A DNA stretch of 41,410 nt from Pleomorphomonas carboxyditropha (GTDB lineage Bacteria > Pseudomonadota > Alphaproteobacteria > Rhizobiales > Pleomorphomonadaceae). Of this stretch, positions 10,496 to 12,604 are shown piece by piece (the first letter of the stretch is position 1; every line of letters starts with the position of its first letter). The notes below the pieces were generated by a model that made no database searches, was not told the DNA's origin, and was given only the letters and a program-made list of their open reading frames with translations. The position numbers and the translations under genes are program-made. The stretch is from the NCBI RefSeq assembly GCF_002770725.1, contig NZ_NQVN01000031.1:1-41410 (forward strand), written 5' to 3'.

Positions 10496-12604
10496 TCAGG
10501 CGGCCGAAATGGTGACGTAATCGGCCGACAGCGCCCCTTCATGGATGACGAGGCCGACGCCGCCGTCGGCAAAAGCGCTGTCGCCGTCATCGCGGGCTTC
10601 GAGGCTCACTCCGCCCACCACGGCGGAGAGGACGCCGCCGCTGACGCGGACGCTCGCCGGCACCGCTTTCTCGAAGGCAAAGTCGAACGGCGCCTCGGCC
10701 AGCACCGTCACCTTTTCGTCGCGCACCTTGACGATCTGCAGCCGGCCGTCGCGGACGAGGCGAATGCCGTAATAGCGGCGCAGGCCCTGGACGCGCACCG
10801 CAAGGCCGCCGTAGCTGCCGAGGTGGATCGTCAGGTCGGTCTTCACCGCGTAGTCGGTCCACTGCCGCGTGCCGTGGCTCACCATGCCTTCGCCGACCGC
10901 CTGCGAAATGCGGAAGCTCGGCGGGAACAGCTTTGAGAAGAAGCTGACGCCGTTGACCCAGGCCATGCGCCAGAAATCGCCGTCCGCCTTGGGACGCCGC
11001 AGCGTCACCTCCGGCGCGCCGTCCCAGCGCAGCCAGTCGACGAGCACGCGGCCGTCGGCGCGCTGTGTCGCGGTGGTTACGGCGATACCGATCTCGCCGA
11101 TCGGCTGGCCGTCGAATTCCGGCAGTCGCCATTCGAGCACCGCTTCGCCGCCCGGCGCCAATGTCACCGGCTTGCCGTCGACGTCGCAGAGCCGGTCCTT
11201 GTCGCCGAACACCTTCAGCGTCAGGCGCACGTCCACCGCGCCACCGTTGTCCCTGGGGGCGAGAACGCGGGCGCGCACCGTCTGGCCGGGATAGACGGTC
11301 GGCGTCGCCATCAGCTCGTAGGTGCGCATGTCGGTAACCCCGGGCGGCGCGAAGGTCGGCGTCGTGGCGGCGGCCACCTGTCCCGGCGCCAGCGCCGCAT
11401 AGGCGATCTCCAGAGCCCGGCCATCGCCGAAAGCGACATTGCCGACGCGCTGCGCCGGGTTGGCCGTCGGCCGCCGGTCGGGCCGGAAACCCTGCACGCT
11501 GCCGGGCAGCGAGAAGTGGAAGCGGGCGCCGTCCTTGGGGGAGGGCAACGGCGCTTCGCCGGCCAGCCGCCGGCCGAGGCCCGCGACATAATAGGCGATG
11601 CGCACCGCGTCGGTGATGCCGTTGCCGCCGTCGGCCGAGGAGATCAGCAGCCGGTCGGCGATCGGCCCGCGCCAGTCGGGGCCGGCCTCGATGCCGTCGA
11701 GACCGAGCATCAGGCCGGAGAGGCAGCCGACGTTGCCGGCGTTGCAGTCGGTGTCCCAGCCGGAGGTGTTGACGATGCGCTGCGCCGCCTGGAAGTCGTG
11801 CGGCGCGTAGAGGATCGCCATGATCATCAGCGCATGGTTGGGCACGACGTGGCAGTTGCCGGGGAACTTGTCGTAGCCGTAGGTATCCTGGATCAGTTGC
11901 CGCGTCGTCAGCCAGTCGGGGTTCTCGGCGTGCCAGCGGCGGACGTCGGCGACCAGCCGGGCGATCAGGCAATCGCCGGGAATGACGGATAGGCCGGTAT
12001 CGATCAGGTGGTCGATGTCGCGGGAGACGAAGGCCTCCGCTTCCATCGCCGCCCAGAGCGCGGCGGCGTGCACCGCCTCGCCATCATGGCTGACCTTGCC
12101 GGCGGCGCGGGCGAGACGGGCGGCCAGCTCAGGCCGGCCGGGCGCCACCATGGCCCAGCCGTCGATGAAGATCTGGGCGCCGATCTGCTCGGCCACCGTG
12201 GCGCCGTTGACGGCGATCGAGCCGGAGGCCGGCGCGGCGATGCCGCGCTTGAGGTTGAGCCAGGCGGTGTGCTCGGTCGAGTTGCCGTTGCCGCCCCACC
12301 AGAGGATCGAGCGATGCTCGATCAGGTAGTTGAGCCAGGCCTTGCCGACGTCCTCCGAGGAGAGATCGGGCGACACGCCGTAGTCTTCGAGCGCCCGCAG
12401 GAAGGTGAAGGTGCCGGCGACGTCGTCGTCGGTGACGACGAGCTGCTGGCCGAGCCGCTCGTGGACGTAATAATCGATGGGACCGAGCTTCTCCATGATC
12501 CTGGCATGGGTCCAGCCCTCGAAGGGGCGGCCGAGATAGACGCCGATCAGCTTGCCGAGGACGCCGGCATAGACGCGGTCGAGATAGTCAGCGGGAAGGG
12601 ACAT
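10496..12604 (-). CDS. ADP-ribosylglycohydrolase (DraG)-fold protein with C-terminal beta-rich module
   Basis: This 702-residue protein combines two parts. Residues 1-350 show the DraG/ARH all-helical fold signatures: [20 protein letters not shown] at the start, a metal-binding TDDD at 58-61, and [12 protein letters not shown] with DTD at 284-286. Residues 360-702 look like beta-sandwich domains. The last 120 residues ([20 protein letters not shown] onward) resemble concanavalin-like sugar-associated modules. Classical DraG/ARH enzymes cleave ADP-ribose from proteins using two Mg2+. Here the gene lies between permease and ATPase genes of a sugar importer, so a role in cleaving an imported glycoside or riboside is more plausible, though inferred. 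There is no signal peptide, so it is cytosolic. The ATG at 12604 has a GGAG nearby; the gap from the permease stop is 29 bp. Confidence 0.85.

Follow-up and report, generated by a model that had tools for sequence, protein, structure and literature searches.

What does a protein of the ADP-ribosylglycohydrolase (DraG) family do in a sugar importer operon? This question is raised by the gene for a 702-aa DraG-like protein in a 41,410-nucleotide stretch of the genome of Pleomorphomonas carboxyditropha (the whole of it hereafter called the window). The original prediction, made from this DNA alone, had proposed an intracellular glycosidase or ribosidase that uses the binuclear Mg chemistry of the DraG family.

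The operon and its importer

On the minus strand of the window, the genes for a LacI-family regulator, a solute-binding protein (SBP), two permeases, the DraG-like protein and an ATPase follow one another in this order (Table 1), confirming that the DraG-like gene is placed between the permease and ATPase genes of an importer. The 527-aa ORF listed for the MalG-like permease over-runs its start. The permeases are of the sugar type, as proposed, with the GlcU/T, UgpE/A and MalG/F models scoring best but below their cut-offs; the class name given to the importer, CUT1, is based on these matches. The SBP resembles binders of oligosaccharide-type sugars.

A neighbouring operon in the window has the order SBP-permease-permease-GH116 (PF12215, PF04685)-ATPase, so that its GH116 enzyme occupies the same slot as the DraG-like protein does in its own operon. 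The two operons are alike in this SBP-permease-permease-glycosidase-ATPase order, but the GH116 family is unrelated to the DraG-like enzyme. A divergent LacI gene lies beside the GH116 operon, and the two operons adjoin in one (L008) of the 36 relatives described below.

Table 1. Positions of the features in the window and of other loci mentioned in the text
Feature	Position	Strand	Basis or remark
Predicted LacI operator TTATACGTATTA	16977..16988	.	single TNATACGTATNA match in window and genome
LacI-family regulator	15950..16951	-	best NCBIfam model RbsR, 224.8 bits, below cut-off 382
Sugar SBP, 439 aa	14470..15789	-	nearest solved relative 4g68 'ABC transporter', then other sugar-binding proteins
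Sugar-type ABC permease (MalF-like)	13464..14309	-	profiles
Sugar-type ABC permease (MalG-like)	12634..13467	-	profiles
DraG-fold protein with two beta-sandwich modules, 702 aa	10496..12604	-	ATG start; sole enzyme-like gene of the operon
PF03747 catalytic domain, residues 14-307	11684..12565	-	profile match and alignment; E29, D59-D60-D61, H173, D284/D286/C287
Middle beta-sandwich, residues ~370-540 (limits approximate)	10985..11497	-	AlphaFold model
CBM66-like concanavalin beta-sandwich, residues ~562-702	10496..10921	-	profile match, AlphaFold, Foldseek
UgpC/MalK-type ATPase	9414..10475	-	NF008653, 487 bits against cut-off 432
Divergent LacI gene beside GH116 operon	8367..9401	+	with GH116 operon, 1340..9401
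GH116 operon	8186..1340	-	
L041 (G000:C22:81000-100500), two tail-DraG paralogues	6139-19500 of the locus		
L042 (G000:C22:150500-169500), Bmp/PnrA-type operon	3594-9621 of the locus		
L117 (G000:C22:255500-275000), importer, PfkB and DraG	4341-10866 of the locus		
L118 (G000:C22:495000-514500), importer, PNP, PfkB and DraG	7135-15854 of the locus		
L119 (G000:C31:1-15000), DraT-DraG pair	5173-6937 of the locus		
L061 (G161), SBP-permease-permease-tail-DraG set	5715-10984 of the locus		

Domain architecture and active site

The ADP-ribosylglycohydrolase character of the protein is established by its match to PF03747 (E 2.6e-53; 182 bits, cut-off 26.2), the only family among the Pfam and NCBIfam profiles to match at E 0.01. 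The motifs TDDD (T58-D59-D60-D61) and DTD (D284-T285-D286) lie exactly at residues 58-61 and 284-286, where they had been read. Inspection by eye revealed no signal peptide, in line with the predicted absence of one, and the hydrophobic residues ~11-25 correspond in the alignment to helix 1 of ordinary PF03747 proteins; the protein is presumably cytoplasmic.

Two AlphaFold models were made, one full-length and one of the N-domain alone, the inputs of both being only the window protein and the proteins of its relatives (64-91% identical in alignment A1 and 73-95% in A3). The full-length model, built from 32 sequences, has a mean pLDDT of 68 overall, the tail being largely confident and the N-domain weak; the N-domain modelled alone reached a mean of 57.8. 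In the fold search with the N-domain, the only match below E 0.001 was ARH3 (6g1q; E 4.7e-4, TM 0.42-0.46), superposed poorly with an rmsd of 16.7. The assignment of the DraG fold comes mainly from Pfam, and PF03747 was matched by all 20 members of alignment A2.

Structure prediction and fold search resolved the tail, which had been described as about 340 beta-rich and concanavalin-like residues, into two beta-sandwiches, with modelled strands spanning residues 386 to 701. Ten-residue means of pLDDT are mostly 82-97, dipping to 37-77 near residues 411-440 and 531-580. The concanavalin-like description fits the last module, residues ~562-702, which matched the CBM66 chain 4b1l of levanase at E 2e-6 by hmmsearch (0.007 with the narrower alignment A1). 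Foldseek also assigned it the CBM66 fold, with TM (target) values of 0.73-0.74 and an rmsd of 1.9 A against 4azz and 4b1l (4azz: TM 0.73, E 1.1e-6). The likeness to the CBM66 of Bacillus subtilis levanase is one of fold (rmsd 1.9-2.3) and sequence, but identity is only 17-18%, and here the module is fused to a DraG domain. Residues ~370-540 form a separate beta-sandwich that had no specific match of its own. Galactocerebrosidase 3zr5 (E 3.4e-10) and the CBM22 tandem 4xup ranked best in the full-length search; their matches span both beta modules with rmsds of 12-17, and they were rejected as homologues.

To compare active sites, the N-domains of 20 DraG-like proteins with such tails (tail-DraGs) were aligned with 28 ordinary PF03747 proteins, including the genuine DraG of the host, which scores 373 bits to the dinitrogenase-reductase glycohydrolase 2woc. 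The 28 come from 33 ordinary loci (L086, L087, L091, L111 and L114 were not extracted), and the Bmp-linked L086 was added apart. E29, D60, D61, H173, D284 and D286 are kept in all 20 tail-DraGs; the ordinary proteins had been picked by a motif filter (DD[TDSA] and D[TAS]D[TSC], which allows Cys as well as Thr/Ser), and the conservation of Asp in the motif columns is partly by construction, because both motifs were required. The metal-binding Asps, the catalytic Glu and the conserved His are thus shared with DraG and ARH3. In the column of E29, the ordinary proteins have Glu in 24 cases and Gln in 4.

At other positions the two groups are sharply separated. Val22 is found in all 20 tail-DraGs, whereas all 28 ordinary proteins have the Asp of their GD motif; likewise, Asp59 and Cys287 (20/20) stand against Thr or Ser (28/28), Phe146 (20/20) against the Arg of the NGAAMR motif (28/28), and Trp283 (20/20) against Gly (23/28). 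In addition, the tail-DraGs carry an 8-residue insertion (134-141) within the NGAAMR loop, a loop with a role in ADP binding. The ~340-residue tail and the importer operon further distinguish the DraG-like protein from DraG and ARH3. The second metal motif also has equivalents in ARH3. By spacing, Val22, E29, D59, D60 and D61 correspond to D34, E41, T76, D77 and D78 of ARH3, and a passage of PMC8319183 reports severely reduced activity of the ARH3 mutants D34G, E41A, T76R, D77N and D78N. A passage of PMC3482391 lists [RK] among the conserved residues of the domain; if this residue is equated with the Arg of NGAAMR, the tail-DraGs have Phe146 instead.

The retention of the Asps and Glu, together with the switched residues, argues for an enzyme that is active yet no longer built for ADP-ribose. 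The proposal of the same binuclear Mg chemistry is accordingly borne out in part: the Asp ligands and the catalytic Glu remain, but Asp and Cys replace Thr/Ser at two positions and the match of ARH3 D34 is Val.

Conservation, predicted regulation and relatives

Relatives of the DraG-like protein (64-91% identity) were found at 36 loci of the genome collection, in Pleomorphomonas (orthologues 89-91% identical), Kaistia, Devosia, Aquamicrobium, Mesorhizobium, Shinella, Rhizobium, Bosea and unplaced MAGs. The genes for LacI, SBP and the MalF- and MalG-like permeases lie upstream in this order in 34 of the 36, with 28-69 bp between permease and enzyme, so that these homologues are not scattered away from sugar transporters. 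The two exceptions both lie on short contigs: L019 has 83 bases upstream, and L038 lacks matches to LacI and SBP and has another pair of permeases (28-30% identical). The ATPase gene is directly downstream in 29 relatives and not so in 7.

When the surroundings were scanned up to 5 kb away with a single HMM method, ABC permeases turned up near 35 of the 36 relatives (the exception being L019) and near only 4 of 54 other PF03747 genes, and ABC ATPases near 33 and 8, respectively; the sets are not phylogenetically independent and some control genes lie on short contigs, because of which neighbours may be missed, but the contrast is large. The control genes came from a 150-genome sample of Pseudomonadota and comprise 54 of the 57 PF03747 genes listed outside the host genome, those of G594, G635 and G646 being left out. 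PfkB genes did not separate the groups (3/36 versus 6/54), and in this survey PNP genes were near none of the 36 window-type loci. Of 10 other tail-DraG loci, 7 have a permease no more than 5 kb from their top-scoring DraG (L041, L062 and L072 do not).

Upstream of lacI, 33 of the 36 relatives' loci carry the palindrome TNATACGTATNA, and those lacking it (L007, L019 and L038) are contigs without the lacI start. It also precedes lacI in an Enterobacter plasmid relative (L072). The window holds one match (none in 100 shuffles of the window), which is the only one in the whole 5.9-Mb genome (none with the reversed-pattern control); between lacI and the SBP gene, no palindrome common to the 10 loci examined was found. 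From its position and conservation, we infer that the palindrome is the LacI operator. With this single match in the genome, the predicted regulon would be the DraG-like operon alone, with the DraG-like protein as its only enzyme.

The DraG-like gene is rare and patchy. At E <= 1e-60, and with the own genome included in each count, it was found in 2 of 289 genomes of the class, 16 of 297 of the order and, by alignment, 2 of 398 of the phylum. Plasmid records with a match at E <= 1e-20 number 25, one of them from Deinococcus. Phages yielded no relative at E 1e-5, and none of 16 pattern matches in viral contigs was confirmed as one. A set of SBP, two permeases and a tail-DraG also occurs in a 1.6 Mb genome of the same class (L061), where the local GC content is 29%.

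In the phylogenetic tree, the tail-DraGs form one clade (support 100/97), with long branches flagged by the program. This clade joins a DraG of a Bmp/PnrA-type operon (90/72) and a tail-less Deinococcus DraG (100/99 for the whole), and YegU and the ordinary DraGs fall apart from all of these. The Bmp/PnrA-linked protein is encoded in the host genome (L042), at the end of an ABC operon with an ATPase and two BPD_transp_2 permeases; its placement is unsure because its branch is long. It resembles the tail clade in its DxDCN motif and its ABC-operon context, but differs in its size of 463 aa, with some 40 residues past the PF03747 domain, its NDD first metal motif and its permease type.

Six of the seven PF03747 genes of the host genome lie beside ABC-importer genes; the remaining one encodes the nitrogenase DraG and is next to DraT (L119), a genuine pair that offers a natural comparison. 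One host locus (L041) contains two tail-DraG paralogues with sugar-type ABC genes, together with genes for a nucleoside hydrolase (PF01156, 5e-82), a uridine-phosphorylase-like PNP, PfkB, SIS and YjbQ proteins; the same gene set, 54-87% identical, is also present at L062 of another genome. Against the ribokinase model TIGR02152, the L041 PfkB reaches only 49.7, and blast found a counterpart of the L041 nucleoside hydrolase at none of the 36 window-type loci. Two further host loci combine ABC-importer, PfkB and DraG genes: L118, in one run with a PNP gene (46% to the PNP of L041) and a creatininase-family gene (DraG motif GGNDSDT), and L117, with a GntR/UTRA regulator (GGDTDT). PfkB and ABC genes are also near the DraG genes of L139, L146, L148 and L149.

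Ribokinase-like genes are present in or near tail-DraG operons of Deinococcus, Agrobacterium, Shinella, Bosea and L066, each scoring 204-291 bits against TIGR02152, under its curated cut-off of 299.65. Three ribokinases above the family cut-off are encoded elsewhere in the host genome. In a third set, 33-35% identical, a tail-DraG is accompanied by a second DraG and importer genes and, in some members, by ribokinase-like, CoA-transferase III and HpcH-lyase genes; the three second DraGs tested all fall on the YegU side of the tree. Such operons, with a second DraG and a tail-DraG and in some cases ribokinase, CoA-transferase III and HpcH/HpaI lyase genes, were seen at L063-L066 and L073-L076; speculatively, their substrate could be a sugar linked to a hydroxy-dicarboxylic acid.

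Function and substrate

A PF03747 front half, a beta-rich tail ending in a module of the sugar-binding type and the position as sole enzyme of a conserved importer operon suggest that the protein most likely breaks down the imported sugar compound. On these grounds, the DraG-like protein is probably a cytoplasmic, metal-dependent glycosidase of the compound that its operon imports. GH116 is a known glycosidase family, and its occurrence at the equivalent position of the neighbouring operon supports this assignment. The overall interpretation of the original prediction thus agrees with the importer synteny, the presumed cytoplasmic location, the metal ligands and the beta-rich tail, and is only partly supported in its Mg chemistry.

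That the substrate is a ribofuranoside in particular is a more tentative suggestion, which we hold slightly less firmly because PfkB genes are near only three window-type loci. In its favour are the nucleoside hydrolase, PNP and PfkB genes near the paralogues and their recurrence in L062, the ribokinase-like genes of several tail-DraG operons or their surroundings, the grouping of the tail clade with the Bmp/PnrA-linked DraG, and the three host ribokinases. The ribose connection is drawn mostly from paralogues 33-53% identical, because window-type operons are generally without kinase and nucleoside genes. The scarcity of PfkB and PNP there, the sub-cut-off ribokinase-like scores, the oligosaccharide-type likeness of the SBP, the weak N-domain models and the variable ATPase position all count against our explanation.

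In the mechanism that we envisage, the imported glycoside would bind by its furanose ring, whose hydroxyls would coordinate a pair of metal ions bound by D59/D60/D61 and D284/D286, with C287 replacing Thr. Like E41 in ARH3, E29 would activate the scissile bond, and water would release the sugar and the aglycone; the beta modules may accommodate the remainder of the substrate or help to form the pocket. The sugar released would most likely be ribofuranose, to be passed to a ribokinase.

A rather unlikely alternative, though the best of those considered, is the hydrolysis of a non-ribose furanoside or another glycoside, with the CBM66-like module recognizing the terminal sugar. CBM66 binds terminal fructose, and a fructofuranoside would therefore fit as well; the SBP, the GH116 enzyme in the equivalent slot and the rarity of PfkB nearby point the same way. 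The nucleoside hydrolase, uridine-phosphorylase-like and ribokinase-like genes around the paralogues speak against it, as does the DraG fold, which is known for ribose-ring substrates.

It is improbable that the protein is a true ADP-ribosyl hydrolase, acting on macromolecules or on imported ADP-ribosyl compounds, with an operon position that is incidental or serves ADP-ribose salvage. PF03747 membership, the retained metal Asps and catalytic Glu, and ARH3 as best fold match are what such an enzyme would show, but the Arg-to-Phe exchange with its adjacent insertion, the Val at the position of ARH3 D34 and the constant importer synteny argue against it, and the same genome already holds a genuine DraT-DraG pair for nitrogenase. 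Slightly less probable again is a role without hydrolysis, in which the imported compound is modified otherwise (by a deglycase or isomerase) or the transporter is regulated: SIS-domain and PfkB genes, which also occur in Amadori-compound pathways, lie beside the paralogues and the window operon has no product pathway, but the metal and catalytic residues of a hydrolase are kept in all 20 aligned members.

Returning to the glycosidase reading, it is already known that DraG-family genes lie beside transporter and sugar-kinase genes, as in E. coli yegTUV. YegU resembles the DraG-like protein in being a PF03747 protein encoded with a transporter and a PfkB kinase, but it has 334 aa, no beta tail and a GGDTDT motif, belongs to another clade, and is accompanied by a predicted MFS-type nucleoside symporter in place of an ABC importer. 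ADP-ribosylglycohydrolase genes reportedly lie in Bacteroides ribose loci, a report that our literature search did not find. The functions of yegTUV are described as unknown in a passage of PMC10819704. The matches listed from the CC-licensed PMC literature, a scope that gives no proof, included no report of a sugar operon with a glycosidase of the DraG family: the passages found in PMC4052901, on LacI regulons, mention no such DraG-family enzyme, PMC9426524 does not mention the subject, PMC2217521 and PMC10434189 make passing mentions, and STM3547/RikA, going by a passage of PMC13432705, has a neighbourhood different from the window operon. As far as these matches show, the beta-tailed clade, its rewired site, the single-operon regulon and the constant importer pairing are new.

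We tentatively propose that the tail-DraGs may be undescribed binuclear-metal furanosidases that gave up the ADP pocket and gained CBM66-type modules, each now the sole catabolic enzyme in a self-contained LacI/CUT1 operon for ribofuranosides of plant or soil origin, either nucleoside-like or ribosyl-disaccharides. If true, this would add a new catalytic route to the breakdown of ribosides or furanosides. The annotation 'ADP-ribosylglycohydrolase' tends to be taken as the reversal of ADP-ribosylation, and if the clade is a glycosidase family, it misleads wherever the clade occurs. As a one-enzyme operon with a unique predicted operator, the system would make substrate discovery directly approachable through SBP and LacI binding.
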